From positions 8,326,790 to 8,390,789 of the forward strand of contig JARUPZ010000017.1 of assembly GCA_031213475.1 (NCBI GenBank): a stretch of 64,000 nucleotides of DNA, written 5' to 3'. Shown in pieces: positions 3,674-63,386 of this stretch. Numbering within the stretch: the stretch's first letter is position 1; each line of letters opens with the position of its first letter. Position numbers and translations under genes: made by a program. The notes below the pieces were generated by a model that saw nothing but the letters and a program-made list of their open reading frames with translations, was not told where the DNA came from and searched no databases. The stretch is from Nereocystis luetkeana (lineage: Eukaryota; Sar; Phaeophyceae; Laminariales; Laminariaceae).

Positions 3674-6600
3674 GACCTATCTGCCTCTTTGTCTGTCCGC
3701 TTGTGTGTGTCTGTCTGTCTTTCTCTCCCATCCCCTCTGTATGTGCGCCTGTCTATTTCTGCTTCATATATCTCTCTTACTCATCGCTTCTCCTGCTATG
3801 CTATCTCTGTCTCTACCCTATGGGCATGCCCCCCAGTGTTCCTAGACGTGTCAATCGGCGGAGTTGCAACAAGGCTGACGTTCGAGCTCCGCAAGGACAT
3901 CGTGCCCCGCACAGCCGAGAACTTCAGGTCGCTCTGCACGGGAGATCGGTGAGCGTCGGAACACGTGCTAGTCAATTAGAGGACTGCATCAGATGCACGC
4001 AGCGCGTGCAATCCTTAAGCCTGATGGGACATTGCCGATTTTTCTCGCACCCCCCCCGCATCGACTTCCAATCATACCAGGGTGGATGGCGTGCGGCTCA
4101 GCGATACACCAATGTTCGTGTTCGCGTTCCCCGTATACAGATATGCCAAATTATCTCCGTGAATACGCCTCGTTTAGATGCCTTGCCGCGTGTCCTCCCT
4201 CTCTCTGCTTTGAAGGCCCAACAGGGATGACGGTGTTCGACTAAGCTACCAGGGTTGCATCTTCCACCGGGTGATTAAGGATTTCGCGGTTATTGGTGGC
4301 GACATCGCGGTAAGCTGAGCCCCGAACAGCGACGAAGCGCGATGCCACGTTGGCAGCAGTGGGTGTCTTTGCTTTCTGAAGCGCTCCTCGTATGAGGACC
4401 TCAATGCATTACCCGATAGTATCTAACCTCGAAGAAGACGATTCGTCCCACTCTCGGCCATGCGGTTTATGCACACTTGGTCCTAAAACAAACATACGCT
4501 TCATATTTGAATTTAACGCACCAGTCGGCAGTTGCTCACTTGACGGGTCTCAGCTGGTTAGACAAGGACACAGCTCGGATGGACAGATGATAATCTATCT
4601 GATCTGTCTACAGATAGATCATTTGGTTCCTTACCTGCCGTCGTGAGACGTTGCGCAGGATCTGCACATAACAGATGCAACCCGGAGAGCAATTGCTAGA
4701 CCATTGCAGGTTGTACGTCTCCCACCCGGCAACACGAGCTGGATTGTACAACATCGGGAGTATGTGATACTCCTGCCTTGAAATCTCTAGATCCTCCAGG
4801 GGGAATATATTACATGTGAATGATCTATACATGATCTGTACAGGATCTGTACATGATCTGTAGATAATCTGTCCGAGGTGCTTGACAATGACAAGGTAGA
4901 GGGTGTAGTTTCGAACAGAAACATTTCCGGTTTACGGCGGGTCCTCCTTAACAACAGACGAACTACCTACCACCACGTATGCCACTAGGTTTCAGAAACA
5001 GCCAAGTTTAGATGTTCAGAAACAAACTCACCTGCACCCAACGAGCCATCCCATGGCCTATTAGTTGGTTGTATCGATTCCAACGAATGATGTTGTATAA
5101 CACATATGTTACCCCAAATCGATTGGGTATAGTTCACCCGTTGGAGGAGACCCCTCAGTCAGCAATACTTCGGGAACGACTCATATCATGGTCGGGGTTG
5201 ATGTTTTTGCTTCTGAGGCTATATTTTCTGACCGGTTAAGCGCCTCGACTGATCAACTTCCAGTTAGTGTGATACCATAGATTTTAACACGCTCCGTCTA
5301 TAACCAGCTGCGTAGTGAGTTTGTGGGATTGCCCAAACAAATTTTCTTCGAAGTCACACTCCGGGTGAGCTATTGAGCTCCTCGTGGATGGAGCTCCGCA
5401 GAAAATAAGACACCAACCCTGAAAGGCATCACCCCTACAAGGCATCACCCCTATAAGGCATCACCCCTACCAATCACAACCCCTCACGTGCTGGCGTTGC
5501 TCTTAAACAAACCGCGCCCCTGTGATAGACGCACGACAAGCCGTGCTACCACGATAGGGTTTTGCACTTTCGAGACCCGGCATTTCTAAGTTTGATGAAG
5601 CTCCTCAACTAACTGCGGATCTTTAACCCGGACATCGTTGGGATCCGACGCGAACACCTCAGCGATTAGATGCCTACGAGACGCGATTGTAATTGCGTAC
5701 GCTCTGGGCTCAGCATCACAGCATACATACGGCTCCTTAAATCCGTTGTTCGAGAGCCGCGGGGACCAAAAGGTGCAACCCTACTGCCCCACGCCCCTTG
5801 GTGACGCACACGCCTCCTCCTTCTCCTCCTCCTCCCTCTCGCCCTCCGCCCCCTCCACAACACCGCAGAGACACGACGGCACGGGTCGAGTCTCGATCTA
5901 CGGCGGGCCGTTCGCGGACGAGAACTTTATCTTGAGGCACGTGGGCCCCGGGGTGCTGACCTGCTGCAACGCCGGGCCGGACACCAACTCCTCCACCTTC
6001 ATGATCACCACTGTCGAGGTGGGTGTCGACTCGAAACGGAGCCCTCGTTCCATAGGAGGGGAGAGACTCACTTTGATTTTGTGAGGAGTAGGGGTAGCAC
6101 CTACGCTCGCCTTCTGAGGCACCTGGCGTGGTCATAGTACAGACGCTCTGTTCCTCAAAATCCCGAAGCCGACGTCGCAACCCGAGAAGCAGTCCACTCA
6201 ACTCCTATTAATAGGTCATTTATTCGGTGTATCACGAGCACCATCGTAAAACGCACTGCCGTGCGGTACGGTATTGTAGCGACATCGGGGTTATGGCGCT
6301 CGATCGGTCAGATATCGTTCTGGCCATAACGGGCTACCTCGATCGTGGCACGTGTCTTGCGCGAACCGCGAGGGTCTGTGCCTCAGCCGAAATACGGCGA
6401 GTTCAGAGAGAAACACCGTTGCCGGGGGGGGGGGGGTGGGAGGAGGGGTATGATTGGGATGATGATGCAAATTGTTTTGTCTGTCTTGTGTACGCCTCTC
6501 GTGCAGCGAGTGGGTCTGTACCTCAAAATCAAAGCGCAACACGTCGTGAATACACTTCGTTGGCGCAGGGGGCTAGACGCAATCCCCGTGCGGCGCATAC

Positions 6601-9994: not shown

Positions 9995-10280
9995 ACACAT
10001 CTGACATATATTATGGACAGATCTTGTACAGAGCATGTACAGATCATGTACAGGTCATTTACATATCATCTACATACAGGTCCGTCCTACTTAATGATCT
10101 AGATATTTCAAGGCAGACATATCATCTATCCTGGGAAGTGCGTGGTTGAGTTATTTTGGCCGGGTGGGACCCGTATAGCCCGCTTGTTTCACAGCGCATG
10201 TTTCTTGAGTTGGAGCTGCACTATCAATTCTACTGGTATGCAGATCCTGCGCAAACTCTCGCAAAGACAAGTGAGGCGCT
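9995..10280. repeat. Repeat F copy
   Basis: GGACAGATCTTGTACAGAG and repeated GTACAGATCATGTAC units match repeat F at 4573-4882, in the opposite orientation. The AGATCCTGCGCAA block is also shared. Confidence 0.4.
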
Positions 10281-10734
10281 ATTAATATATGATATAACCA
10301 CCCGAGGTGCAGAGCGGCGCTACCCCTGTCCGAGCACGCCTCTGTTGATCATGGCTCTCGGTAGCTTCGACAACACGGTAACCAAGGCATCGACGAGTAA
10401 TACAAAGACAGACAAACCCATATGCGATGATAGTACGTGGCATGTATGACCGTGTAGTCGTGTGACCATGGACCCTCTCATTCCCACCGACCAGCCAGCC
10501 ATCGTAGGGGAACGGGGCGGGGGGGGGGCGGGGGTGCGCGGATCGGCCGAGTCACACGTATGTGTCTGACGGGACACGTTCACATAGGAGCTACCCAGCG
10601 GATTTGCAGTCCGAGTTGTGTTTTACCGTTGGATGTGGCAAATGATGCAGTAGCGGGGGGGGTGTGTGTGACAAAGGCTGCGGTAGCGGGGGCACCCCCC
10701 GTCTCAACTCAGGCTGTAGCGCCACACTGGCGAG
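10281..10734. other. No gene recognised
   Basis: Open frames here lack known motifs. G-rich runs occur near 10515-10530. Confidence 0.4.
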
Positions 10735-12190: not shown

Positions 12191-13215
12191 TGCGCTCGTG
12201 TTCCATACGCCGTGCATATTTATAGATATGCCTGTACAGTAGTGATCTACTGCCAGTAGCAAATCTACGGATTGACCCGGCCAGTATGTTCACCAGCCGT
12301 TTTAGTTTTTAGCGTACGCGAAAGAAACACGCCATACTCTAGTATGGAATTTTACCTCCTGTGATAGATTGAAGTTCGTTCAGGATTCATGTTTGCAAGC
12401 TTGGTGCGATACTTCGACCATGGGTGCTACTGTACGGGACGTGTAGGTTTAAGAGGCACCCACAATATTTATCCACCTTATATTTTCTTCGCGAACAAGT
12501 GGCTGCCTAAGTTGCAATGAGCCATGTCTGCATATCGCCTTAGCTTTACGGTACGCTGCACTCCCTGTGTTATCGGAGAAAGTCAGTGCTTGTGGGCGAC
12601 GTATGTACAGCGCGCCTTCTGTTTTTAAACCGCTGCAAGGAACATTGCACACTTCGGACGTACTGTCGATTCCTCTCACTTCTTGGCCTACCTGGTATAG
12701 AGCTTTCAGGGTTGGCACGTTTCTGGTCTGTGCGATTTATTAGCTTGTGTTGCCGCGTCGGAGTCGTATAATCGCCGTGAGCTAGGACAGGTTTCCTGGG
12801 TTTGATCTGTAATGTACAGATCCTGCGCAACGTGTCGTTACGGCAGTTGCAAATCGAGATGATCTACGCTATATTATCGTGGTCTGTCCGAAGGTGTAAA
12901 ACATTGCCGCCACCCCGCTCTCTTTCTTCTTTCACCCATTCTATTGTTCGGGCTTATTTATCCCGCTCCCTCCATCCCTCCCAAGTCGTACCTCAGACCC
13001 GGGGTCAGATGGTAGGCTCTTCCGGGACGTGCCGTACATATTTTGTTCTCGAGAAAGGTGCGGCACTTTCTTTTCTCGTCCACTCGTGCCAAATTGTGTG
13101 CCGCCGTGTTGTCATTTGGTCCTACCGGTTTACCAGGTATTATTTTGTGTGGTGGGTACCTCCCGGTGCCTCCACTGACGGAGACCAGCGACCCCATGGC
13201 TTAAGAATGTATTAC
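12191..13215. other. Unassigned, with a fragment of repeat F
   Basis: At 12785-12895 TGTACAGATCCTGCGCAACG and GTCTGTCCGAAGGTG match repeat F. No gene is supported in the rest. Confidence 0.4.
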
Positions 13216-13469: not shown

Positions 13470-15056
13470 TCGTACCAGGTAGTCTAGCGTGCGCGCCAAT
13501 GCTATGAGTGCCAACGTTGAGGCTAACTGCATACACTGCGTAATGGCTACAGTAGAGCAGATACACCAGAGAGGGGGTTGCAATCTCGCGTAGTCTCGTC
13601 GAGTGTTTTAGGCCTGCTAGATAGCGCCCGTGCGCGTTTGAAGCCACTGCATTGTATCGAAACAAGTTTTTACCCCTTCCAACGTTGTATGTGTGGGTGG
13701 GGCAAGGTTTACACCTCCACGTGTTGTATGTGTGGGTGGTACGGTTCGGGTAAACCCTGCACGTTGCCATACAGCGAACGGAATACTGAGTAGCCAATGC
13801 TCACATGCGCACACGCGCACACGCCGTCGTGGTCAGCATGATCGTCTGACGCGTGCTACGACGAGCGTAGCGGCGGCCATGCTTTATGCGCGTCCATGCC
13901 CGAGGGACCGGCTTCTTCGCCCCGCCACGGTGTATGGGAAAGCACGGAATATTCCTCGTAGCCTGATTCAGACACCTTCATCACGGCCGCCTTTGACGAA
14001 AAGCAAAAGCACGCGTCGTACTGGCCATGCCGCTCTTCGCCGCCGTCACCTTCCGGTATATCCTACCCATCCCACACCACCCGCCCGCCCGCCCGCCCGC
14101 CCGCCGCCCCCCTACCTCCACCTGCGAGCTGCTACGGTACGAACTTCACGTATCACATCCGTATCGACGAGGCGTAGTGAGTAGGAAGGACGAATACCGA
14201 TGGTGAAGAAGGACGAACACCGATGGTGCTTCGGCGGCGAAAGGGCCGCAACTGAGCTGATACAGAACGCACTTCACGCATATCGCATCCTTCTCGACGA
14301 GACGTAGGAAGTAGGAAGGACAAACACTATTGGTTGTTCGGAGCCAAACGGGGCCACAACTATCTCGGCCACCTCTTTGGCTGCCTCCTTTTAGCACGCG
14401 GAACGCGATACAACCTGCCCGAAACCTTACTTTCGAGAAGGTCAAAAAGCGCCACACAGAGGGATGGGCCATCCCATGGGATACTCTGGGCGATACACTG
14501 CATACTGGGATAACCATGAAATTGCGTAGTCGGCTAGCAAGCAGGAAACGTTTGGAATAGCGGATATGTTACAGGCCGGGGGGCCAACACAAACGCCAAC
14601 ATACATGAACACATGGGTGGGGTGGCAGAGGTGTTTTGAAACGTGAGGAGGGTCGTACAGAACGTTGAGCTCGCTCGTTCTCGACAACCGTACAAGGCGG
14701 GTGTTAAAGTCTAACTGAACAGCTTCGGGAGATTCTCGATCATTCAGTCTTTACGAAAACGCCTGGTTCTGTAGTCAGCAACTTTTCCGTCTTTTTTTTT
14801 TATCAGAATCGAGCGCAATGAACGATCGCATCCCAGCGCGATCTTAACGCCTTTTATTTAGTGTGTTTCTTCTTTGGGTACTGTGAATCCTCAGCCCTCA
14901 GTTAGTTGTTGAGCCCCCCCCCCCCCATCCCCCCCCCCCTCCCCTCCGAGATAGGACACAAACACGTTTTTTTAGTCGAAATCAAATTAAAATTCATTGA
15001 AGATAAACATTTTAACTCCCCTATCTATGGCGTTCCCCGTTAAGATGGGCCCTAAG
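13470..15056. other. Unassigned; GC-rich stretch with (CCCG)n and short direct repeats
   Basis: A (CCCG)n microsatellite lies near 14077-14107. Two diverged direct copies (14137-14200 and 14262-14330) share CTTCACG and AGTAGGAAGGAC blocks. A Pro/Arg-rich frame across the stretch looks like repeat-driven open frame. Poly-C runs occur near 14914-14940. Confidence 0.4.
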
Positions 15057-18211: not shown

Positions 18212-18463
18212 GCGTTACACGATAGAGGTTCACTCTAAGTTTTTTGAGGCTCCTCACTTAAGGAGCTCCATACCTCACCCGAAAACTGACTTCAACGAAT
18301 ATCAAAATACATCCAGATACCAGGTAGATGAATAATCCCATGGCCCAAGTCTACAAAACGTTTGTTTTCGAAATCAAGATTGACATTCCGACGATTTCGG
18401 GTCAAGGAACCCCGTCTTTCAGAAACAAAATAGCGGAAATGTGCTACCTCTATCGTAGAACGG
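18212..18463 (+). mobile_element. Family A TIR element inside LINE-2
   Basis: It begins GGCGTTACACGATAGAGGTT and ends CTACCTCTATCGTAGAACG. The full set of internal landmarks is present. LINE-2 blocks continue on both sides, so the MITE is younger than the LINE. Confidence 0.75.
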
Positions 18464-19439
18464 GTCTACAGGAGATGATAGAAAGAAGGGAAATACTAGC
18501 GCGAAGGGTAGAGGCGAAATCGGAGAGACTCTCGGAGATAAGCGGGGTTAAGCGAAGGGGTAGGGCTGTATGGGAGAAAGAAACAAGAGGGCGAGCTGAA
18601 AAAAAGGTGGGAATAGCGTAGTCGAGAAATTTTGGAAGAGTATAACAGGAGACCAAGGCAAACATGGTGCCCGTAGAGAAGTTTGGGAGAAATGATACAT
18701 ATTATATAATAAGTAGAAGAAAATAGAGAAAGAAGAAGGGAAGGGATAGCACCAAGAAACAAGATAAAATCTTGAAAACACTCAGAAATACACGAGGGGG
18801 GGTCAAGGGATGCAAGGCCCAATGAACTTCGCGATTTCGCCGAAACTGCGATTTTTTTGTCTAGGGGACTGGATCTGTAAGAAAGAAGGAAGAGGCGATA
18901 CACGTGTAGCGCGATGCGTAGATAGATGTATGTGCCCGTGTGACAGAGCATTAATTAGAGTGCAGAAATCACACACACAAGTAGTGAGTTGAAGAGTGTG
19001 AATTGAACCGCGAGGAACGGGATGCGCTAGACGAGGAGATGAGAGAATTAGACAAACGTGACATGACATGGAAGAGTTTGGTACTACATACACTAGATCG
19101 CAGCGAGGAAACCATCGCTACCCTGGGAGATAGAAGGTGGCCACAGACGGCTAAACACGAAGGAAGGGGAAAAATCTATTTGTATGAAACGTTTCAATTT
19201 AAAATGACATAATAATGTGCAAAATACGAAATAAAGCGCCCATCTGTTGGGGGTGTCTCTACTAGAAGTAAGAACGGTACTCCGTCGGCATGTATGCGTG
19301 ACCAATTGTCGAATGACTAGACCAATCAACACATGAGTACGCCCCCCCCTCCCCCTCCGCCGCTCGTGACTATTATACAGGAGTTTTGGCCCAAACGCCC
19401 AGTAAAAAGCGTTTGCGGTTATTTGTTTAGTACGAGTAG

Positions 19440-21369: not shown

Positions 21370-23800
21370 GGGACGAGATGGCAGAAACACTTAAGGGGAT
21401 GCCAAATTGGAATACCGTCGGACCAGATGGTCTCCCGGGCGAACTCTTGAAAATCGACCACCCCGCATTCGCGCATTACTTTCACAGCAGCACTTCAATG
21501 TTTGGGTAACAGGAGAAGTTCCCCAGCAGCAATGGAAATATGCACTTTATCAAGGTTCTTCACAAAAAAGGTACGAACTGACTGCAACAACTACTACAGA
21601 GGGATTTCGCTTGTTGCCGACGCAGGGTAAGTTTTGTTGAAAAACGCCCCCCTGTACGTGTGCTTCGTCGATCTATCTGCAGAAAGCGTACGAATCTGTT
21701 GACCGAGAGCTGTTGTGGGAGGTACCCACACGTTTTGGCGTACCAACCAAGATGCATGAACATATCCATAATTTCCACGACGGCATGGGGGCTCGCGTGC
21801 GTACTGATGATGACGACGAGCACTCCGAATTGTTTTTGATGCCACGCGAAGGCTGCGGCAAAGCGGTGTGCTATCACCGTTACTGTTCGACGTATTCATA
21901 TATCTGCTGCGTCACACGCCGTACTCGTACGTTTCAGCCTAGACGAAGCCTTCGTAAAGATATTTTGTCCGACTCAGCGATGCTGGAGTAGTTCGAACGG
22001 AGGAGCAGGAGCCGTTGGCGTGCGTGCGAAGGGCTGTAAGGGGCATGTTGTACGCCGATGACGCAGGAATTGTCTCGAAGTCTCGGCTGAACGGCTCGCG
22101 AAAATGATGACAGTCACATCGTGACTGTCTTCGAAGCAGAAGGCCTCACGTGTGGCGGAAAGTAAGACAGAAACCATGCTTCTACCAAACGCCAGACAAG
22201 ACAACCCTCGCACCACAGCTCGTCATCGAAGCAGTAGGCCAGAGGTAAAAGCAGATGACCCGCAGTCCTTATACCCAAGCGGCATTATCCACGAAAACGC
22301 TGACCTCTCGCTCGAAATCGGCCGACGGATCCGTCTCGTGCGAGCATGACTCAAACGGATCGACGCGGAGTTCTATAATAATAGGACGACCGCCCCCCCT
22401 AGCCTGAAAGTCCGAAAGTTGAAGGCCGAGGTGATTGAGACCCTGCTGTACGGGTGTGTGACGTGGACCCCCAGAGCGGAACACTTTGCCAAGCTTCGAA
22501 TTGGCTCACCACCAAGTCCTGTGCGGCGAGTCATTGGCCTCCAGCGCCGACTGCGTACTGACCACGCCACCCTCACGTACGAGAAGGCCCTCAAGATGAC
22601 ACATTACGAGAGCATCAAAAACACCATTCGTCAACGGCGGCTCTTTTTCGCGAGGGGTGTGGCACCGCACAGCCAGGAGCGATTATCCAGTGGGGCAATG
22701 TTCGGCATGATGGCTGGTGGGGAGAACGCGAGACCAGGCGGACAGATTAAGACTTGGCATAGTCGGAGACCTTAGGGAGTTCCGAGCCACCTAAGGGTCA
22801 ACGGAACCTGCCCGCTTGGTATTTGAACTTAAGACCACGCGCTGTGGTCCATTGCAGCAAACACCGGCGGGCGAGTGGTACCGGGGGATCCTTAAAGCAG
22901 TCGAACGGTCAATGGTGAGGTGGCACGAGGCTGAGGCTGAGATGAGTAGGCAGCGCCATGCATCCGCCGTGGGTGGTGTCCAAGGGAATAGAGTGGGGGG
23001 GGGGGCACCAGGAGGAGTGGCAGAAAACCCGACTAAAGGAATGCGGAGAGGGGGGGGAACAGGAGTAAAATGGTAACTGCGGTGGACGAAAGTAGGCAGG
23101 AGATAGATGGCAGATAGGGTAGCAAGGCAACGGGCCGACTAGGAAGTAGAACATGACTATACTACTATTAATAGTGCCACCAACTGGTGCAGCTGGCTCG
23201 AACGTGGTCTTCCATTGTACTGTCTTGGTTTTATTTTTTTCTTTCTTGCGCCGATTCTCTGTGATTTTCATTCTATTTCTTTCTCTTCCTTTTTTACATT
23301 GATGAGCCGTGTTGAAGGAGTCGTGTGGCGTGGGTGATGACGCCTCATGTTTGCTTGTTTCGTATTGTCTGGCGCCACGGGGCTGGACGTAGTTGACGAA
23401 CACAGGACGGAGACGGCAGTCACAGGGTAGCAAGGTACCAGGCGGACTAGCAGGGAGAACCTCTGGCTATGCTACTTGTACCATAAACTGCTGCCGCTAC
23501 CCGAAGGGTGCTTTGTTCTTCGGTTTGCCTATTATTTTTTCTTGGTTCTTCGTCCTACTCTGTTTACAAGTAGTGGTGTTTCTCTCATTTTTTCCCTTTT
23601 CGCCCAGCTCGTTCTTTTCAAGTGTCTCCCACATCCCCTGCGGGGGGGGGCGCGACAGTTTGTGTCTTCTATATATATATATATATTTTTTAGTTTTCTT
23701 TTGATTTGTCTTCTTTGTTTGTTTTTGTTTCTTCTTTGTTTCCCTTTGTTTCTCTACAGCATAGACTAAACTGTGGATGTCGTGCCTGTCGTATCCAGTT
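21370..23800 (+). mobile_element. LINE-1 non-LTR retrotransposon, copy 1 (plus strand)
   Basis: Reverse transcriptase pieces appear in order: [17 protein letters not shown] (about 21420-21470), AYESVDRELLWEVPTRFGVP (21690-21750), FHDGMGARVRTDD (21775-21815) and the catalytic LYADDAGIVSKS (22050-22085). A C-terminal region with LLYGCVTW and RQRRLFFARGVAPHS (22440-22680) follows. Then come a 3' coding tail (22815-23076) and a long 3' untranslated region to about 23800. Several frameshifts and stops interrupt it, and the 5' half is absent, the usual 5' truncation. It faces copy 2 tail to tail. Confidence 0.8.
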
Positions 23801-23825
23801 ATTCAACACGTGACATAATAAAGAA

Positions 23826-24957
23826 GAAACAAAATCAATGAAGATAAATCAAAATAATAATCAAAAAAACATATATAAAACAAACTGTCAGCCCCCCCCG
23901 CAGGGGATGTGGGAGATACTTGAAATAAACGAGCTGGGCAAAAAGGGAAAAAATGAGAGAAACACGACTACTTGTAAACAGAGTAGGACGAAGAACCAAG
24001 GGAAAATAATAGGCAAACCGTAGCAAAAAACACCCTCTAGCTAGCGGCAGCAGTTTGTGGTACGAGTAGCATAGCCAGAGGTTCTCCCTGCTAGTCCGCC
24101 TGGTACCTTGCTACCCAGGCTGCCGTCTCCGTCCTGCGTTCGTCAACTATGCCCAGCCCCTTGGCGCCAGACAATACGAAACGAGCAAACAGGCGACGTC
24201 ATCCACCCACGCCAGACGACTCCTTCAACACGGCTCATCAATGTAAAAAAGGAAGAGAAATACGTAGTATGAAAATCACAGAGAATCGGCGCAAGAAAGA
24301 AAAAAAATAAATCGAAGATATTACAATGGAAGACCACGTTCGAGCCAGCTGCACCAGTTGGTGGCACTATTTAGTATAATAACGTTCTACTTCCTAGTCG
24401 GCCTGGTGCCTTAGTACCCTATCTGCCATCGCCTGTCTACTTTTGTCCAACGCAGCTACCCTTCTACTCCTCCTCTTCCCCCACCCCTCCGCATTCCCTT
24501 GGTCGGGTTTTCTGCCACTCCTCCTGGTGCCCCCCCCCCCAACTCCATTCCCTTGGACACCACCCACGGCGGATGCGTGGCGCTGCCTACTCATCTCAGC
24601 CTCAGCCTCGTGCCACCTCACCATTGACCGTTCGACTGCTTCAAGGATCCCCCGGTACCACTCGCCCGCCGGTGTTTGCTGCAATGGGCCACAGCGCGCG
24701 GTCTTAAGTTCAAATGCCAAGGGGGAAAGTTCCGTTGACCCTTAGGTGGCTCGGAACTCCCTAAGGTCTCCGACTATGCCAAGTCTTAAACTGTCCGCCT
24801 GGTCTCGCGTTCTCCCCACCAGCCATCATCCCGAACATTGCCCCCCTGGATAATCGCTCCTTGCTGTGCGGTGCCACGCCCCCCGCGAAAAAGAGCCGCC
24901 GTTGACGAATGGTCGTTTTGATGCTCTCGCAATGTGTCATCTTGAGGGCTTTCCCGT
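23826..24957 (-). mobile_element. LINE-1 copy 2, 5'-truncated (minus strand)
   Basis: Only the last part is present: KALKMTHCESIKTTIRQRRL on the minus strand (24955-24890), the C-terminal tail (24720-24394) and the 3' untranslated region. With copy 1 it forms an inverted repeat with arms of about 1.1 kb and almost no spacer. Its 5' side is cut by the 3' end of copy 3. Confidence 0.75.
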
Positions 24958-27029
24958 TCTTTCTACCCGTCGACATCCAGAGTGTCCGTGCCGATTCTTC
25001 AATCCTAGAAGATATACAAGTTATGTGTGTCACATACGCCACAGGAATACCACGTTGCCACGTATGTATGCAGTAAGCAAAGCAGTGGGCAATGCAATGC
25101 CATGTCATCAGAGTAGGTACGACAGGCACGACATACACATTCTATTAAATAGAAAGGAATCAATCAAAGAGAAAACAAAAACAAAGAAGGCAAATCGAAA
25201 TAAATAAAGAAAAAAATGAAAGAAAAAAGTAGGAGAAACAATCTGTCGTGCCCCTCCCCCGCAGGCGAGGTGGCCGACACTTGAAAAACAACGAGCTGGA
25301 AACAAAAGAAAAGAATAAATAGATAACAAAAAAACCGCTGCTTGTCAACAGAGCAAGACAAAGAACCAAGGAAAAAATAACAAAGAAAGGGAAACATAAC
25401 TGGCAGGCCAAAGCCCAAAGCACCCTCCAAGTGCGGCGGCAGCAGTTTGTGGTACGAGTAGCATATCCAGGTTCTCCCTACTAATCCGCCTGGTACCTTG
25501 CTACCCAGGCTGCCGTCTCCGCCCTGCGTTCGTCGACTATGCCCAGCCCCTTGGCGTCAGACAATGCGACACGAGCAGAGCAGGTTCGTCATCCAACCAC
25601 TCCACACGACTCCTTCAATACGGCTTATCAATAAAAAAAAGAAGAGAGATAAATAAAATGAGAATCACGGGGGATCAGCGCAAGAAAAAAAAGAAAATTA
25701 AAAAAGGAAGACAATGGAAGACCACGTTCGAACCAGTTGCACCAGTTGGTGGCACTAGTAGTATGGTCTTGTTCTACCAGGTACTTCCTAGTAGGCCTGG
25801 TGCCTTGCTACCTTGTCTGCCATCTCCTTCCTACTTTCGTCTACCGCAGTTTCCCTTTTACTCCTCCTGCCCCCCCCCCCTCTCCGCATTTCCTTGGTCG
25901 GGTTTTCTGCCACTTCTCCTGTTCCCCCACCCCCCCCTGTTCCCTTGGTCACCATCCACGGCGGATGCACGGTGCTGCCTACTCATCTCTGCCTCAGCCT
26001 CGTGCCACCTCACCATTCATTGACCGTTCGGCTGCTTCAAGGATCCCCCGGTACCACTCGCCCGCCTGTTTTTGCTGCAATGGACTACTTACAGCGCGCG
26101 GTCTCAAGTTCAAACGCCAAGGCGAAGGGGGCAACTTGTACGAGAGGGTGGCAGGGTCGGTACGAAGTAGGTGCTGGAAGCCAATGACTCGCAGCAAAGG
26201 ACTTGGTGGTGAGCCAATTCGAAGCTTGGCAACGTGTTTCGCTCTGAGGATCCACGTCACACACCCGTACAGCAGGATCTCAATCACCTCAACCTTCAAC
26301 ATTCGGACTTTCAGGCTAAGGGGGGCGGTCGTCCTATCATACAACTCCGAGCCGAACCGTTTGAGTCATGACATGCTCGCATGAGACGGATCCGTCGGCC
26401 GATTTCGAGCGAGAGGTCAGCGTTTTCGTGGATAGTGCCGCCTAGATATAAGGACTGCGGGGCGTCTGCTTTTTTTACCTCTGGCCTGCTGCTTCGATGA
26501 CCAGCGGTGGTGCGAGGGTTGTCTTGTCTGGTGTTTGTAGAATTCTGAAGCATGGTCTCTGTCTTATTTTCCGACACCGTGAGGCCTGCTGCTTCGGAGA
26601 CAGTCACGATGACTGCCATCACATTTTCGCGAGCCCTTCAGCCGAGACTTCGAGACAATTCCTGCGTCATCAGCGTACAACATGCCCCATACAGCCCTTC
26701 GCACGCACGCCAACGGCTCCTGCCCCTCAATTCGAACTACTCCAGCATCATTGAGTTGGACAAAAAAACTTTACGATGGCTCAGGATGGCTTCGTCTTGG
26801 CAGAATAGTACTACATACAACAGCACGGCGTGCGGCGCAGCAGCGAAGATACGTTGTGATAGCACACCGCCTTGCCGCAGCCCCTGGGTGACATCAAAAA
26901 CCTTTCGGAGTGCTCGTCGTCATCATCAGTACGCACGCGAGGCCGCATGCCATCGTGGAAATTACGGATATTCGTCAGCATCTTGGTTGGTACGCCAAAA
27001 CGTGTGAGTACCTCTCACAACAGCTCTCG

Positions 27030-27237
27030 GTCGACAGAGTACCTGAGTCAGGAGAGATATTTCAGGTGCCTACATCCTCGGAGTAAACCACACTTAAAAA
27101 TCTTTGATGACGGTCACAGACAGGCCCGACTAAGGTGGAAAAAACGAACCGGGTTCGAACCGGCACACGAAAACTTGAGAAATAAGTGTGGGTAGGGGTT
27201 TCCTCTCGCTCTCCGGGGCAGAAAAAAAAACAAATCG
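27030..27237 (-). mobile_element. Possible SINE-like insertion in LINE-1 copy 3
   Basis: The segment splits the LINE-1 reverse transcriptase after QKAYD. On the minus strand it contains CCGGTTCGAACCCGG, a perfect B-box-type core inside a small stem, and it has poly-T runs near both ends. No clear A box or target duplication was found. Confidence 0.4.
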
Positions 27238-27406
27238 TAAGCTTTCTGCAGATCGATAAAGCACACGTACAGGGGGATTTTCCTGTGTCGTCCGAGCTCT
27301 TGCAACCGACGCACGACAAACTAACAACTTATTGATCGTTGATCGTGCGGGGCGGAAGCCGCGCTGTCCCTTCAGGGGAATAATTCCTCCGTCTCGCCGT
27401 AGGTGC

Positions 27407-27656
27407 TTAGGGTTGTTCTTCGGAAAGCTTTTTCTTCAAAAGTTTCGACAATTTTTTCGCGCAAATTTTTAATCTTCCATATTTTCCTGTTTTTTTTTCC
27501 AAATATTGGAAGGTTAGCGAACTTGATATTTTTGGTTCTGGAGAATTTCACGAATAGTGACGGAACGCCTCCGTATATTGATACATATCTCCGATTATTT
27601 CCAAACTTTGGAATTTTTTGGAAAAAACGTTCTCCGATAAGAATGAACCTTACTTA
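27407..27656. mobile_element. Family H TIR element in LINE-1 copy 3
   Basis: The left end is GTTGTTCTTCGGAAAGC and the right end is the inverted GTTCTCCGATAAGAATGAAC. The interior is nearly identical to 37687-37925, for example GGAGAATTTCACGAATAGTG. Flanks (TGCTTAGG and TACTTAGG) look like a worn 8-bp target duplication, which would suit hAT-like elements. Confidence 0.6.
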
Positions 27657-28010
27657 GGCGGGACGCGACATTTTTCAACAAAACTTCGCCTGCGTGGGCG
27701 ATAAGCGAAATCCCTCTGTAGTTGCTGCAGTCAGTTCGGCCCTTCTTTTTGTGAAGGCCCTTGATGATCGCATCTTTCCATTGCTGGGGGACTTCTCCTG
27801 TTGCCCAAACATTGACGAGGATGTTGTGAAAGTACTGACTGGGCAAATGCGGGGTGGTCGATTTTCAAGAGTTCGACAGGGAAACCGTCTGGCCCGACAG
27901 CATTCCAATTTGACATCCCCTTAATAAGTGCTTCCGTCATCTCGTCCATAGAAGGTTCAGCTTCAAGCGTCAGTTTCAGCGGTCGCGGTGGCAAGAGGTC
28001 GCTTATCGTG

Positions 28011-28560
28011 GGTAGAGTATATACTTCTAACCTTATACCTGGTACACATAGAGTATTTATATGCGAACCCTCCTACTACTACTGTTGCATGCCCCGAGAG
28101 TATTACATGTTACGTCAGGCCGTGTTCGCTCATAAGGAACAACAGTAGTCAGACGACCACGGAATTCCCATCGTCGGCAGCTTATGACGTCATATTTTCC
28201 GGCAGCTCAATTCGTACTGTACTTCCGGAGACTCGGAGTATATACTCGTACGTACTCGGAATATATCGGAAATTTATAAATATAGTTAATTGTTGTATAT
28301 ATATGTTCAATTTTACGTTTTTTTTTTTTTTTTTTCCAACCACAACATGATTCAAAAGATGAAATGCCGTACCTTGGTAATCAACCGAGCCAGCGGGAAC
28401 ACTTTTGACACGAAACACAGCAGTGCAGAAACCGTCATGAGCCGTGCGAAACCGTGACCCTATAGCACCGTTTCCCGGCTAATGAAACGGCGGGTTTTCG
28501 ACGGTTTCAAGGTAACCGCACTCGGTCCGTCAAATGAAACCGGTTTGAAGGTATTTGGCA
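28011..28560. other. A/T-rich, no gene recognised
   Basis: Contains a T run (28318-28335). No conserved frame. Confidence 0.4.
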
Positions 28561-28606
28561 CCGTATCTTGACGCACACAGTGCGGTGAGGTTTCGATGGC
28601 ATTCCT

Positions 28607-28970
28607 TCGGTGCGGTTCGGTGCGGTTTCAAGAAATCCGGAGTGTTACGGTGCGGTTCGGTGCGGTTTTCAGATATCGTGAACCTTACGGCGCGGTTCGG
28701 TGCTGTGATATAATATATCCTACGGTGCGGTTCGATGCGGTTTTAAAATATTGTTAATGCTACGGTGCGGTTCGGTGCGGTTTCCAGATGTCGGGAACCC
28801 TACGGTGCGATTCGGTTATCTTTGAAATCCCACCGTCCGGTTCGGTGCGGTTTTCCTATTTTGTAAAACCTAGAGTGCGGTGCGGTGCGGTTTTCAATAG
28901 GCAAACATGCTACGGCCGTGCGGTGTGGTTAACCGCACAGAACCGCACCGAACCGATAGGAGGAACCGCA
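28607..28970 (+). repeat. Minisatellite with 40-bp period
   Basis: About eight units begin near 28612, 28651, 28691, 28725, 28765, 28805, 28835 and 28875. Each has a core like GGTGCGGTTCGGTGCGGTTT followed by a variable A/T-rich 20 bp ending in (C/T)TAC. The array ends with an inverted half unit (GAACCGCACCGAACCG), so the last units can fold back. Confidence 0.85.
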
Positions 28971-29199
28971 CCGTAAAGAACACCCTGGTCATTTCCCCCC
29001 CTGCTCCGTCTCGATTCCTGCCGACCCTAAACTAAGGTGGATGGAGTCTAAATCGCGATACTCTCCTCGAATTATTATAGTACTGCCGCGCTTTTGTTCT
29101 GGAGAGTTCTTCACTTTCTGTATTTTAGACACATTGTCGGATGGCAAGCATAATAATAATAACAATAATTTAATGCTAGTATGTTACCTGGTATATATT

Positions 29200-29745
29200 A
29201 AAAACTAAAAAAAGGCACGTCAGCTGTGTGAGTTCAAAACAGGCCGGTCGCCCCGGTGGTTCAAGTGGTTAACCTCGAATTCTACTTGTTTGAGTCCTGG
29301 GTTCGAGCCCTAGGAGGGTCGGACTTTGACTTTATTTGCAAAAATAAAAAAAAGGGATTCAATTGTTGAGAGCGCCTTGCAGCGTGGGTAGGCACAATTC
29401 GATGCGAGTCGACGAGGGAAGAAAAGGCTGAAATCTTCTCGCGATAAAAATGAAGGCACGTACCGTAGCGGGAAGGGGGGAGAAGAGCCTGCTATGTGAC
29501 CCCGGATCTGAGTTACGAGTTGGAAGGAGAGAGAGAAGAAGATGTGCGAAGATAATGAATGGGATGGAAAAAAAAAAAAACAAAAAAAAAAAAAAAAAAA
29601 AAACAAAAAAAAAAAAAACGATCGGTCGATATACTCAACTTTGCGAACTGCGTGATAACCGCGCCCGCGTTTTCCATTTCCCCCCCGCGATTGTCTACTA
29701 CTGGCCGGTGACTCCCCTCGATGCTTCCAGGGGGTCGACGACACG
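29200..29745 (+). repeat. Repeat K, split by a SINE
   Basis: CACGTCAGCTGTGTGAGTTC at 29215-29236 continues at 29619 as CGATCGGTCGATA and runs to GGGGTCGACGACACGAT. The uninterrupted order is seen at 929-1112. Confidence 0.65.
29242..29618 (+). mobile_element. SINE-1 copy a, tRNA-derived
   Basis: The head starts GGCCGGTCGCCCCGGTGGTT, with TTCAAGTGGTTAACCTCGA in the D-arm/A-box region and CTGGGTTCGAGCCCTAG (B box GGTTCGAGCC). The body includes GCGCCTTGCAGCGTGGGTAG, TCTTCTCGCGATAAAAATGA and GACCCCGGATCTGAGTTACG. It ends in a long A tract. Two further full copies (32736, 38124) share head, body and tail in the same orientation. Confidence 0.85.
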
Positions 29746-30318
29746 ATACACTACGCATGCATGTATGTATGTGTGTATACACAGGCTCGATTTCCGATAT
29801 GGCTTTGGGTCGGTACCAGAATCGGCACGGACACTGATGTGACTGCTGTTTGCGCTGACGGGTGTCGAACTGGTATACTTATTGTATTCCTATTAATATA
29901 TACCGGTACCAGGTACCTGGTATGTATTTTGAATAAGGGTTTGACCCGAAAAAATACGAACAGACAAGTTTTTTACTCATATGTTTGGATCATCATATAC
30001 ACGTATATATCCAGTGCACCTCCTATCGATCTCTATTTTTGTCGCTTGACTTCCAGAATAGGTCCAGAATCCAGAATGTTTGATGCAACAAATAACGTAA
30101 TTATTATATGGAAAATCTTGGGAAAATAATAATTATTGATTCTCGACGAAAAAACAGCGAGAGGCCCGGGCGTGCGCCGTACGACCAAACAAACGACGGC
30201 CACAAAGGACCAAACAAAACCAGGTACCTGGAATAGAGACGTCGAGGTATACGAGACTGGAAACTCGAAACGCTGGGGTACGGACACCTCGCACAGCTCC
30301 GGAGCGGCAGGAAGGTTC

Positions 30319-59107
<28,789 letters not shown>

Positions 59108-59697
59108 TGGTATACGTGTTTGCCGACCACAGGGAGCAGTATCAGTATGATGTGAAACCGGCCTTTTAAGAGACCGTTTGGTGTTTTAAGTGGTTTGGGT
59201 TGTCTAGGATGGGTGGGGGGGGGGGGGGGCATTTTGTCTGGGTCCCCCCGCGTAGGTGTTGGTGCAAATTCGGGCGCTGTGGAGATAGCCTGGTACATGC
59301 TTGAAAACCACTGAGCTATTGAAGGCGGTGGCTGCTTTGGGGGTTGGGGCGGGGGATCGTGGTCGGATCCAACGATTCCCCCTAACGCTAGCGTAATCGC
59401 TACGTCTACACGCCACATTGGGCTCTCATCGCTATGCCCTCCCCCAACATACAGCTCAGTAGTTATGTCTTTACACTCTGGACGACAATAAGTAGTTGTG
59501 TCTTTACACTCTGGACGGAAATACGAGGACATACGAATACCAGTCGGTGCTTCTAGTTCCGCCCTGTTAAGACCGCGGTCCATTTCGTGGACAGAATACT
59601 TGGAATTAGAGGGATATGTCCCTAGCGCAGGGCTGCAGCGCCGGAAGGGTTAACCTGGTATTTTTCTGAAGATAGGCAACACCCGCGTGAACAGCCT
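59108..59697. other. Downstream of exostosin; degenerate family C relic at the end
   Basis: 59561-59654 keeps CTGTTAAGACCGCGGTCC and GGGCTGCAGCGCCGGAAGGG arms of family C. A 19-bp direct repeat (TGTCTTTACACTCTGGACG) lies at 59466 and 59500. No gene is seen. Confidence 0.5.
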
Positions 59698-59797
59698 NNN
59701 NNNNNNNNNNNNNNNNNNNNNNNNNNNNNNNNNNNNNNNNNNNNNNNNNNNNNNNNNNNNNNNNNNNNNNNNNNNNNNNNNNNNNNNNNNNNNNNNN
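59698..59797. other. Assembly gap (100 N)
   Basis: Exactly 100 unknown bases, the usual placeholder length for a scaffold gap of unknown size. Confidence 1.
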
Positions 59798-60284
59798 GCT
59801 CGGGTGCGAGCTTCCATCAATAATTTGATCGTAGCGTCCGATCCAATAGGCCATTGTGTTTCCGGAGCCGCATCGGGGCGGCTCATATCAGTAGTGCAGA
59901 CCTCTCGCGGTTACCAGTGCTATTTGATGGGGGCACAGGACTTGCAGCTGGAGGTGTGGTTGAGAGTACGGAATGGGATAATATATCTGAGGGACATCCC
60001 GTGTGTAACATAGTCGGGTTCGAAGACAGGGGTGGGGGAGTCTGTAGTTTTGTTGGCTGGAGGGTGACTGGACCGTCCTCGAGGTGGTAGTTCAAATACG
60101 AGGGGGGGTCTTTACGGGAAGGGGGTCAGGTCGGGATTCATTTTGAAATATCATGGGTCGGGTCGGATGCAGGGTCGGGAGGTGTTTTTTGTTTTTTTTT
60201 TCCCCTCACGCATCGAGTCGGGTTACCCCCACCCGACCTAACCCGCGAGGGTTCGACCCGGCCCGTCGATAGCTTCGAAAACCT
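59798..60284 (+). other. Possible coding remnant after the gap
   Basis: A plus frame to 60013 reads like protein (ASINNLIVASDPIGH, VQTSRGYQCYLMGAQDL) but has no known motif. Its start lies in the gap. Confidence 0.2.
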
Positions 60285-60548
60285 TACGGCAGACGATGAT
60301 CTATCTATATACAGATCATATCGTATTGTCTACAGTAGTTCCTCGCCTGCCGGTGTGAGCGGTTGTGTAAGGACCTGCACATAGTAGTACAGGTCCAAAA
60401 CGAAGAAGCATGCGCCAGATCGTTCGGACGGCACTGATCCCACCCGGTAACGGGAGTCAAGATCGTACACGATCGGGAATTGATCTTGTGAAGAGTCTAC
60501 TACTGTAGATCAACCGTGAAGCCGAAACCGATGATCTGTCCGAGGTGG
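60285..60548. repeat. Repeat F copy
   Basis: AGACGATGATCTATCTATAT at the left and GATGATCTGTCCGAGGTG at the right, inverted ends as at 4573-4882. Confidence 0.45.
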
Positions 60549-61435
60549 TGGTGTGCAACCATTGCAATTATGGCAATCATTGCCGCTCTCAGGTTCCCCC
60601 AATACCTTTGTATCCGGTGAGTGATTTTTTTCGAACGCCGGTTGTTGTTTGGGGCCGGGGGGGGGGGCGGTGTATACCAGTAGAGCTTTGGAAATGGGGA
60701 ACGCCCTCCTACGTTTTTATTGGTTACCGCCTCGCTCTACCGGTGCATGCGGTCACTGCATGACGCAAATAACCAATGTGATCGACTGCGCTCGGCGCTG
60801 TTGAACCCCCCTCCCCCTCTTCGTCCACCGTCTCCATATGTTCCGAGATATCAAAGCGTTCAATACTAGCTGGATTGTTTAACGCTAGTCCAGGTTGGGT
60901 GGGGCACGAGTAGGGAGGTCAGACTCGCGTATGTGTTTTTTATACAGTAGGTAGGCCCTGTTAGGGGACCCCTATAGCTCCCGATGTTAGGGGTGCTTTG
61001 CGGTTGGGTTCTGGAATCGAGGTCCTCCACATACCAACGTCCCTTAGGTGACAAATGTCTGGCTCCACGTAGGCACCTAGGTAATGTTGAGTGGGACCGG
61101 ATCCTTGGGGGGACCTTAAAAGGGGGGAAATTGACGATAAAAAAATGGCGATTTACGGAGCCCGGCGGCCACTGCGTGATCGGGCGGTGGTGGTGGTGGG
61201 GGGCGGGGGGCGGAGGGGGGGGTCTAAACGGTGTCCGAGTTACAGTCCGAGGAGTCGCACTGGATGGGTATGGAGCGCAGTCAGCATGACATGGACCCGT
61301 ACTGCTGTGCACTCAGGCGTTCGCAAATGGTACCGAAGTTGACGTTGCTTAGGTCGTTTTTGCGGGAGATCTTAAAGCGAATAAGCCGAACGCCAGCGGA
61401 GGCCACCATGCTGAGTGGGGCGGGGGAGCGGGGGG

Positions 61436-61475
<40 letters not shown>

Positions 61476-62265
61476 AATAACTCTACGATAGGGTTTTGGG
61501 GCGCGCAAAATATGTACCAGGTATTAATAGTTCCTTCTGCCAGTTCCGTTGTCGTTGTTGTTTTTTCGAGCGAGAAATTAGGGGCGTTCGCCCAACTGGT
61601 TCAAGGGGGTTTGACTTTCCTGATTGACCGCGAGCGTCCATACTAAAGGGCGCCCCTGGCCCCTCAAGGTGAGGGCACGAACGGTTTTGCAGATTGTTGA
61701 GATCGCATAGAATATACCCGGCATATATAGAGTACCATTTGCTTTGGTATAACAGGGGGGGGCTTAAACTGGGCTACTACCTACTTCTTGCTGCGTTTAT
61801 CGTTTTGCCATATTTTGGTGTGAAGGGGAATGATGCGCTCGAGACCTTGCAGGGAAAAGAGACCACAGCATGCCCGCGCGGCGAGGATGGGTAGTCGCTC
61901 GAGAGTTGAGAGCGACGGAAAGGACCCTGCTGTGGTATTGGGAGGGCGGAGGTGGGGGTTGCGTCAGGGGCTCTCACTCGTGCAGACCTGGTACGTTTTT
62001 TTTTTTTTGTCTGGCCCGTCATTGCGGCTGCGTTCAAGTGTAGACTATAGGACATGCCACAAGGTCAGAGGAGTTGCTCGTTTGAGCCTGCATTTGTAAC
62101 CGGGGCGCCTTGGCGGCTGTTTTATCACGCGAAACGGCCGGCTGCGCGAAGATATCGCACACATCTAGGAGGTGTTTCGTGCGTGAATTTTTTCTGCTTG
62201 TTGTGATGCATGAGTCGTGCGGCGGCGGCGGCGGCTGTACTCTCTCTTGGTTGTGTGTGTTTCAG
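60549..62265. other. Unassigned, G-rich tracts
   Basis: A G run of about 31 lies at 61441-61472, and others near 60658 and 61198-61220. No gene is supported. A frame at 61231-61420 begins with GTG and has no domain. Confidence 0.4.
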
Positions 62266-62316
62266 GAGTTCAAAAGTGAAGAGGGCATGATCGACCCCAG
62301 CGTGAGCCAAGGTTGA
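62266..62316 (+). CDS. Possible terminal exon, 16 codons
   Basis: After a T/G-rich tract ending TTTCAG the frame reads EFKSEEGMIDPSVSQG and stops. It looks like a last exon of a plus-strand gene, but no upstream exon could be linked. Confidence 0.2.
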   Translation, partial: EFKSEEGMIDPSVSQG

Positions 62317-62498
62317 GAACGACCTCTCTTTTCGCATCGAAGCATATCCCCGTGCATTCCGTCGGGCCGCGGCTTCGTGGCCCAATGCGCGAGAAAGCCT
62401 GTGAGGCTAGCTGAAGTGTGGGTTGGGGCTACGGTAGTAATGCTGCAAGTAGTGTAGTTGGCTGTGAAAATTCTCGTCGACCGTTTCGTTTGTTTCAT

Positions 62499-62606
62499 CC
62501 CTTTTAGAACTTACCTGCAGTCTCGTTTTGGGGACAATTGGGGACAAATTACTTGGAATTTGAGTGCCTTGTCCCCAAACCGGGACTGGAGTTCTAAAGG
62601 GGTTAA
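62499..62606. mobile_element. Family C foldback, longer variant
   Basis: CCCTTTTAGAACTTACCTGC at the left, GAGTTCTAAAGGGGTTAA at the right. The left arm has extra bases (TTAC and a repeated TTGGGGACAA). Confidence 0.75.
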
Positions 62607-63289
62607 GTACCAGGTTGTTCACTACGAGACAAACACATATATCTACGGTAGCTGCTTCGGTGGGTTGTTGTTGTCCATTCGTAGAACGTTGATAAAGCTG
62701 CGACAACGTCTCCCTACGAAGACGTACGTTCTGTAAGAAGTCTCACGCGGCAGGGCGTCACTCGTGTTTGGGTGATTGCCGACAGTGTTCGTTCCTGTTA
62801 ACCCCCCCCCTCCTCCCCGTCCTGTCGTAAGGTAGTTCGTAAACACGAACAATAGTATACGAAGTATCAAGAAAAGGGTGTTTCAAGTCTAAAAGTACCC
62901 ATGATTCAGACTCGCGAGAACTCGGTCATTTCAGCCGCTGGTACCCTTGAGGCTCGCTCACGAGGACTCTACCGTTCCAGTACTTTGACGACTTCTGGGA
63001 CTCGGTGCTTCAAAATGACGGGTATTCGCTGGTCAACGACTGAGTCCCGATGACTGGGCATTCAATTTGGTACTCTGCAGACCTTTTTGTATACGGTGTG
63101 TTATTCTCGGGTCGCTGCTGCAATTTTTCTCTCCCACACAAAATGTACCTCACCTCTACGCAGTATATATAGTGTTACTGTACCGCTGCTGTTTTTATTT
63201 CGCTCCTACCTCACGTGCACATACATGCTGTTATTGTTTCTGGCCGACGTTTTTGCGAACGTATTGTTCCTGCTTTTTTGGCCGTTTAT
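62607..63289. other. No gene recognised
   Basis: Only short frames; C runs near 62803-62812. Confidence 0.4.
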
Positions 63290-63386
63290 TTAACCCTTTT
63301 AGTACCGCAGTCCCGTTTTGGGGACTAGTCAGTCAAATTCTAGGTAGTTTGTCCCCAAAACGGGACTGCGGTACTGAAAGGGTTAA
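63290..63386. mobile_element. Family C foldback
   Basis: TTAACCCTTTTAGTACCGCA and GGTACTGAAAGGGTTAA, TTAA at both ends. Confidence 0.88.

Follow-up and report, generated by a model that had tools for sequence, protein, structure and literature searches.

Two TA-flanked words in the brown alga Nereocystis luetkeana are probable repair scars of TA-inserting DNA transposons

Among the transposons closest to the subject of this study, Minos leaves the scar TACGAGTA/TACTCGTA, with four bases, two mismatches and an overhang longer than that of Tc1, and the mariner element Mos1, the end of which starts with CCAGGT, has overhangs of 3 nucleotides (nt). The scar of Tc1/mariner elements is 2-4 base pairs (bp) long in one account (PMC7913693) and 0-4 bp in another paper (PMC9976928); a review puts the overhangs at 2-3 nt and gives C(A/T)GTA as the excision scar of Sleeping Beauty and Frog Prince (PMC3878927). 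In the brown alga Ectocarpus, Mariner-Tc1 elements comprise 17 families and almost 12,000 copies, mostly small and non-autonomous, and the main text of that study mentions neither footprints nor excision (PMC12477816). Here we analyze a 64-kilobase (kb) stretch of the N. luetkeana genome (C17:8326790-8390789, referred to as the window) in which two TA-flanked words, TACCWGGTA (W being A or T) and TATTAATA, recur alongside a small inverted-repeat element, family B. We propose that both words are probably repair scars of cut-and-paste DNA transposons that insert at, and duplicate, the dinucleotide TA. TACCWGGTA would then be an excision-type scar of an unusual 5-bp type, longer than the textbook scar and unusual also in its number and stacking.

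The window holds 25 sites of TACCWGGTA (13 TACCAGGTA and 12 TACCTGGTA on the plus strand), where shuffled sequences predict 0.47 and a second-order Markov model 0.58, and 12 sites of TATTAATA, where the same models predict 0.57 and 0.39. Both recur mostly beyond 28 kb (20/25 and 9/12, respectively), as a preliminary description of the stretch had stated. CCWGG ranks first by a wide margin among the words of the form TA-N5-TA in the window, and TTAA has the largest excess among those of the form TA-N4-TA. Across the genome (465,085,209 bases in 1,987 contigs) each word was compared with its own backward control: TACCWGGTA occurs 182,395 times against 1,744, TATTAATA 93,112 times against 10,689, and TACCSGGTA 10,882 times against 1,899. 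The excess over expectation that the preliminary description implied is thus present at both scales, and the window expectations together with the genome-wide controls rule out chance or low complexity as the origin of the two words. The centre of TACCNGGTA is A or T in 25/27 window sites and in 182,395 of 193,277 sites genome-wide (94%). In the window plus 200 kb of other genome sequence (264 kb in all), which also contains 65 TATTAATA and 15 family B elements, the centre of TACCWGGTA was A 60 times and T 56 times.

At 392 sites per megabase (Mb; 182,395 in 465.1 Mb), equal to 25 per 64 kb or about one per 2.5 kb, the genome-wide density shows the window to be average for TACCWGGTA. The density is uneven, with 1 site per 50 kb at C3:1.00-1.05 Mb and none in loci L045 and L046. 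Loci L038-L042 (C3:1.00-1.05 Mb), L018, L045 and L046 are almost without the word; these near-scar-free stretches are possibly young repeats inserted after the scar activity. The TACCWGGTA sites of the window and their variants, called scars in anticipation of the reading that we favor, are as follows.

12689..12697, minus strand: TACCWGGTA scar, motif match
13131..13139, plus strand: TACCWGGTA scar, motif match
13473..13481, plus strand: TACCWGGTA scar, motif match
18318..18326, plus strand: TACCWGGTA scar, absent in sisters, gap ragged (9 or 11 bases), not scored as an exact gain
25775..25783, plus strand: TACCWGGTA scar, exact CCAGGTA gain at 25777, 3 empty sister alignments
28036..28044, minus strand: TACCWGGTA scar, motif match
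29185..29193, minus strand: TACCWGGTA scar, motif match
29907..29922, no strand: double scar TA-CCAGG-TA-CCTGG-TA, motif match
30218..30233, no strand: decayed double scar CCAGG-TA-CCTGG, outer TAs altered
31567..31575, minus strand: TACCWGGTA scar, motif match
32084..32092, plus strand: TACCWGGTA scar, motif match
32098..32106, plus strand: TACCWGGTA scar, motif match
32389..32397, plus strand: TACCWGGTA scar, motif match
32421..32429, minus strand: TACCWGGTA scar, motif match
32567..32582, minus strand: double scar TA-CCTGG-TA-CCTGG-TA, motif match
33564..33579, no strand: decayed double scar CCTGG-CA-CCTGG
40720..40728, plus strand: TACCWGGTA scar, exact CCAGGTA gain at 40722 against the copy at 33212-33559, single sister
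42132..42140, minus strand: TACCWGGTA scar, motif match
46831..46846, no strand: double scar TA-CCTGG-TA-CCAGG-TA, motif match
48649..48657, plus strand: TACCWGGTA scar in family B copy 4, CCAGGTA gain, 8 empty sister alignments
48784..48792, minus strand: TACCWGGTA scar, motif match
51511..51519, plus strand: TACCWGGTA scar, motif match
55049..55057, minus strand: TACCTTGTA (plus-strand reading), one-base variant in family B copy 7, 7-base gain CCTTGTA at 55051
56398..56420, no strand: triple scar CCAGG-TG-CCTGG-TA-CCTGG, first inner TA altered
61515..61529, plus strand: TACCAGGTA overlapping TATTAATA, TA common to both, scored once per set

Repeated stretches were compared pairwise, and all gaps flanked on either side by a match of at least 10 out of 12 bases were listed, with no motif preselected. 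The window plus 200 kb yielded 613 insertion events, among them 31 of 7 bases, of which 13 were CCWGG+TA, and 33 of 6 bases, of which 3 were TTAATA. A later survey of 351 kb yielded 1,202 events; CCWGG+TA made up 16 of the 51 7-base insertions and was the commonest class among insertions of 4 to 15 bases, while TTAATA accounted for 4 of the 68 6-base insertions, all four exact and at C-TA-G. One 14-base insertion in this survey consisted of two CCAGGTA units. The gains that the preliminary description had named were all present and exact: TTAATA at 23168, CCAGGTA at 25777 and 48649, and CCTTGTA at 55051.

For 16 events in the window plus 200 kb the sister copies were checked, and 15 had exactly empty sister alignments (1 to 8 each), with at least two empty sisters in 9 events and one in 6. 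At 48649 one sister alignment has unrelated letters at the place of the scar. No event had a scar at the same place in a sister, save a double scar whose nearest sister holds one unit. The sixteenth event is the double scar at C1:244,424, in a repeat family of four copies that carry, at one and the same TA, 2 (C1:244424), 1 (245028), 0 (~245600) and 0 (~217100) scars; the sequence is CACGTA-TTGCG in two copies, and CACGTACCAGGTATTGCG and CACGTACCAGGTACCAGGTATTGCG in the other two. Events were counted by place, so that an anciently duplicated scarred stretch would score twice; no shared single scar was found. Since the sisters are empty in 15/16 events and share no scar, at least most of the words have been inserted rather than being ancestral sequence lost elsewhere, which agrees with the earlier expectation of gains at TA of exactly 6 or 7 bp. 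TACCWGGTA thus combines a retained TA on both sides with an exact gain over empty sisters, and the TA is likewise retained in TATTAATA.

These observations suggest a simple course of events. An element would insert at TA, as is seen for family B from an empty site and is assumed for the donor of TACCWGGTA. Its transposase would then make staggered cuts a few bases inside the 5' ends and so leave single-stranded end bases on both flanks, and joining of the flanks would give TA, end bases and TA, a product that is seen as the exact 6- and 7-base gains. In the case of TATTAATA, family B would supply its TT and AA as end bases, a 2-nt cut giving TA-TT-AA-TA. For TACCWGGTA, in the simplest model, each end would contribute a 5-nt 3' overhang, CCAGG (or CCTGG), and the two would pair as C-C-x-G-G around a single A:A (T:T) mismatch, the repair of which in either direction would leave A or T in the centre. 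The A/T centre in 94% of sites, and the near-equal A and T in the 264 kb, are what an A:A mismatch of annealed CCAGG overhangs would be expected to give. Every scar would also be a new TA in a favorable context that draws further insertions, producing stacks.

The TATTAATA sites and family B elements of the window are listed here.

6206..6213, no strand: TATTAATA scar, motif match
10280..10287, no strand: TATTAATA scar, motif match
23166..23173, no strand: TATTAATA scar, exact TTAATA gain at 23168, 2 empty sister alignments
29891..29898, no strand: TATTAATA scar, motif match
32225..32232, no strand: TATTAATA scar, motif match
32329..32336, no strand: TATTAATA scar, motif match
32704..32711, no strand: TATTAATA scar, motif match
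36605..36612, no strand: TATTAATA scar, motif match
41149..41156, no strand: TATTAATA scar, motif match
46704..46711, no strand: TATTAATA scar, motif match
56309..56316, no strand: TATTAATA scar, motif match
43760..43864, plus strand: 105-bp family B element, TTACGGGG..CCCCGTAA, flanked by TA
46596..46700, plus strand: family B element
47036..47140, plus strand: family B element
48566..48677, plus strand: family B element with internal TACCAGGTA scar
49528..49632, plus strand: family B element
50905..51009, plus strand: family B element, left TA is TT
54972..55084, plus strand: family B element with internal TACCTTGTA
55194..55298, plus strand: family B element inside another repeat, element-free copies of which reveal the TA duplication
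57740..57844, minus strand: family B element, reverse orientation

Family B is 105 bp long and flanked by TA, with inverted ends TTACGGGGG...CCCCCGTAA (TT..AA). The 15 copies in 264 kb, counted by a fixed end pattern, agree with a miniature element in their inverted ends, length below 500 bp and copy number. The repeat copy at 18420-18480 is an empty site that reads GATAGAGGTAGCACATTTCC on the same strand as the copy at 55194-55298, from which the target duplication of family B is TA. The base outside the TA is C in 19/27 family B insertions, and the base 5' of the TA is C in 61.5% of the 130 TATTAATA flanks in the 264 kb, compared with 20.4% for all TAs. The insert of TATTAATA therefore equals the terminal bases of a TA-inserting element that has the same C-TA-G preference, and the preliminary description was right about the TT...AA ends of family B next to TA. 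Filled and empty family B sites were observed, as were TATTAATA scars against empty sites, each at different loci and never all three states at one. Judged by these ends and flanks, family B or its relatives are the likely source of TATTAATA. In viral contigs the family B end pattern had no match; the double-scar pattern was matched in 9 of them (L001-L009).

The TACCWGGTA sites show a site preference of their own, with a purine 5' of the TA in 178/232 flanks in the 264 kb against a background of 60.8% (p 4e-7). Among the 116 sites of the 264 kb, 13 neighboring pairs lie 7 bases apart, and such doublets number 15,917 across the genome (triplets scored twice), the backward control giving 2. Even hits on ~25 million TAs (3,403 TAs in 64 kb) would give ~1,300 doublets, so that scars have been revisited about twelve times more often than evenness predicts by our own estimate. 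A scar supplies a TA with an adjoining G or C, in keeping with the site preference, and this may account for part of these revisits. Among 59 listed doublets of the plus strand, all from C1, the centres are equal in 40 cases and opposite in 19, the latter being CCAGG-TA-CCTGG 14 times and CCTGG-TA-CCAGG 5 times. In the 264 kb, 21 neighboring pairs, with decayed pairs and two duplicated loci among them, comprise 11 with equal and 10 with opposite centres. Some equal-centre stacks may be the result of slippage; as the sole cause of stacks, slippage is rejected by the opposite centres in a third of the listed doublets. Of the two CCAGG-TA-CCTGG stacks previously reported in the window, the one at 29907 reads as described, whereas the one at 32567 reads CCTGG-TA-CCTGG. 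In the 264 kb, 113 scars are exact and one-mismatch forms number 64 more than expected, a change of ~6% per base, and some gains distinguish repeat copies that are 90-97% alike; scar-making appears to have gone on for long and into fairly recent times.

Two further words, TACGAGTA (47 vs 8.6 expected) and TACAGTA (96 vs 37), are in excess in the 264 kb and might be additional scars. We do not call them scars, because no gain of CAGTA or CGAGTA occurs among the 1,202 gap events of the 351 kb. Copies of a single repeat account for some of their sites (24061, 25453, 37316).

A donor of TACCWGGTA with CC..GG ends was sought in several ways. All 28 matches to such ends in the window were inspected, and none was an element by eye. 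In the 264 kb, with 14/16 end bases matching, the CCAGG/CCTGG groups gave 6 pairs, the 5 seen all belonging to inverted repeats or double scars, and a looser score over ~338 kb gave none among the best 40 rows. Recurrent 16-base words after TACCWGG were limited to one tandem repeat, and 49 candidate long insertions between paralogues, viewed by eye, included no CC..GG element. The CC...GG-ended element postulated in the preliminary description was thus recognized neither in the window nor in the ~340 kb searched, which contains some 128 TACCWGGTA scars (overlapping loci counted once). Zero donors in 338 kb sets a rough 95% ceiling of ~4,000 copies genome-wide, valid only for elements with clear inverted ends.

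The DDE_1 profile had 28 matches genome-wide, several with open frames. TA-flanked inverted ends around the domain were sought in L043, L044 and L047 and none was found; exact 12-base inverted repeats more than 300 bases apart numbered one pair in L045 and none in L046. L044 has an open frame of 415 amino acids with the DDE_1 domain and a weak Tc5-type DNA-binding match (E 6e-4, under the Pfam cut-off). As none of the five loci read (L043-L047) showed inverted ends around the domain, they could be genes of the host, old copies or longer elements. Window positions 18591-19361 are 68% similar over 800 bp to L046:1093-1831, where the DDE_1 match has three stops nearby, and by this similarity the window repeats at 17-19 kb may be part of a larger element. 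On the excision reading, the TACCWGGTA donor would be rare, lost, or of a form that our searches could not see. We can tentatively imagine, at somewhat less than even chances, a near-invisible TA-inserting element with a 5-nt stagger that has visited the genome and departed cleanly so many times that its scars (>180,000) far outnumber its survivors and serve as landing sites, so that the 7-base unit multiplies itself.

Several observations count against excision as the source of TACCWGGTA. At 182,395 sites the insert measures 5 bases, outside the 2-4 bp range given for Tc1/mariner scars (PMC7913693). No CC..GG-ended element was recognized in ~340 kb, none of the 30 candidates scored genome-wide matched the DDE_3 profile at E 0.001, and the 5 of 28 DDE_1 loci that were read showed no inverted ends around the domain within 4-5 kb. 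The shortened forms TACCAGTA (32 vs 8.3 expected) and TACCGGTA (14 vs 4.1), the enrichment of which in the 264 kb speaks for excision, are absent as gains, CCAGTA accounting for 0 of the 1,202 gap events in 351 kb. The 6/16 events with a single empty sister lean on the other events for their direction, and the purine preference comes in part from the stacks, which place G next to TA; the 13 stacks do so in at most 26 flanks, leaving by arithmetic a purine count of 152/206. The preliminary reading of the words as excision scars is thus upheld by the exact TA gains and the fit of family B, and strained by the missing CC..GG donor and by a length of 5 bp over 2-4 bp (PMC7913693). The underlying observation is real and the reading largely correct, and the central A/T, left unexplained there, fits annealed overhangs.

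The missing donor would be accounted for if a donor-less process, such as abortive transposition or break repair with a fixed filler, added the 7 bases CCWGG+TA at TA, and the almost invariant product (94% A/T centre) and growth in steps of 7 would suit it. We consider this improbable: we know of no such donor-less activity, the second scar of the same genome, TATTAATA, has a matching element, and the retained TAs with a near-palindrome around one ambiguous centre have the look of a Tc1/mariner scar such as the C(A/T)GTA of Sleeping Beauty (PMC3878927). The 7-base spacing of stacks and the predominance of equal centres (40 vs 19) might instead suggest microsatellite-like growth, or the words might be selected functional motifs for protein binding or methylation. 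Slippage cannot produce the opposite centres found in a third of the listed doublets and in 10 of the 21 pairs of the 264 kb, most of the 182,395 sites are not in doublets, and the singles are exact insertions at TA in different repeats, with a decay of ~6% per site (113 exact forms and an excess of 64 with one mismatch), which makes this explanation very improbable. Least credible of all is that the bases are ancestral and were deleted between two TAs in the sisters. A change from TA-CCAGG-TA to TA would be feasible as a microhomology deletion, and the single empty sister in 6/16 paired events gives no direction by itself; set against this are at least two empty sisters to one filled copy in 9/16 events (8:1 at 48649) and the impossibility of making 182,395 copies of one word by deletion. 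As a general case, loss in the sisters is rejected by the 15/16 events with empty sisters and the four-copy series of 0, 0, 1 and 2 scars.

For TATTAATA alone, an origin in some other element, or in part as a by-product of A+T-rich repeats, has to be weighed. Its backward control is high (10,689 vs 93,112), variants such as TATTATTAATAATA are present, and piggyBac elements, too, insert at TTAA; TTAA-CCCTTTTAGAACC ends mark a common family here, which presumably resembles a piggyBac-type miniature element. That such an origin replaces family B is nonetheless unlikely, in that all four TTAATA gains, and the TATTAATA scars as a group, favor C-TA-G as family B does, and piggyBac excision is described as scarless (PMC3878927). 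The TTAA-CCCTTTTAGAACC family is palindromic and ~95 bp long (33119-33213, 34751-34847, 38614-38711, 42212-42308, 42410-42506, 63290-63386 and others); its copy at 34751 is located in the left end of another repeat, of 304 bp.

That ~304-bp family, one of several in the window with inverted ends, has copies 92-93% alike at 34844-35147, 47589-47888 and 50370-50672, long inverted ends (TTTAGCAATCTGGGAGAAGGGATC) and possible target duplications of 8-9 bases. The preliminary description gave the name LINE-1 to repeats at 22-26 kb and 37 kb; this name we could not confirm, as one open reading frame from them has no Pfam match and part of them forms large inverted repeats (22579-24957 and 21695-27038, 88% over 2.4 kb). 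Loci L020-L021 and L038-L042 contain inverted repeats of a similar kind. A repeat at 29243, 32737 and 38124 looks tRNA-derived by eye; within the window the tRNA search found no tRNA gene, and no Rfam family reached gathering scores. A GT47 exostosin-like partial gene lies at 57102-57659 (E 6e-13).

Excision scars are usually seen singly in assays. Here there are hundreds of thousands, readable as a census of past excisions that would give, from sequence alone, departure rates, the manner of break joining (from the centre base and shortened forms), site choice and revisit stacking. A 5-bp, A/T-centred scar would mean a transposase stagger wider than the known 2-4 nt, and such scars, which add 7 or 6 bases, also genuinely contribute small insertions to the lineage. 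In the open-access literature we found no paper with two of the scar words TACCAGGTA, TACCTGGTA, TACCWGGTA and TATTAATA as whole words, and keyword searches on 5-bp scars gave none.

Like the small elements of the Stowaway and Tc1/mariner groups, family B is small, has inverted ends and duplicates TA; its ends (TTACGGGGG) differ from what we take to be the Stowaway consensus. The insert CCAGG equals the first five end bases of Mos1, the overhang of which is 3 nt compared with the 5 proposed here. The Minos scar TACGAGTA is likewise enriched in N. luetkeana, yet the gap events include no gain of CGAGTA. TA-TT-AA-TA, made of TA and two bases from each family B end, corresponds to the scars that 2-nt overhangs leave in Tc1/mariner and Stowaway elements (PMC4561436, PMC3878927). 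TACCWGGTA differs from the Sleeping Beauty scar in an insert of 5 bases (CCWGG) rather than 3, and the DDE_3 transposase is unmatched here; in its form, with TA kept on both sides of a near-palindrome that has A or T at its centre, it is like the scar of Sleeping Beauty and Frog Prince (PMC3878927).

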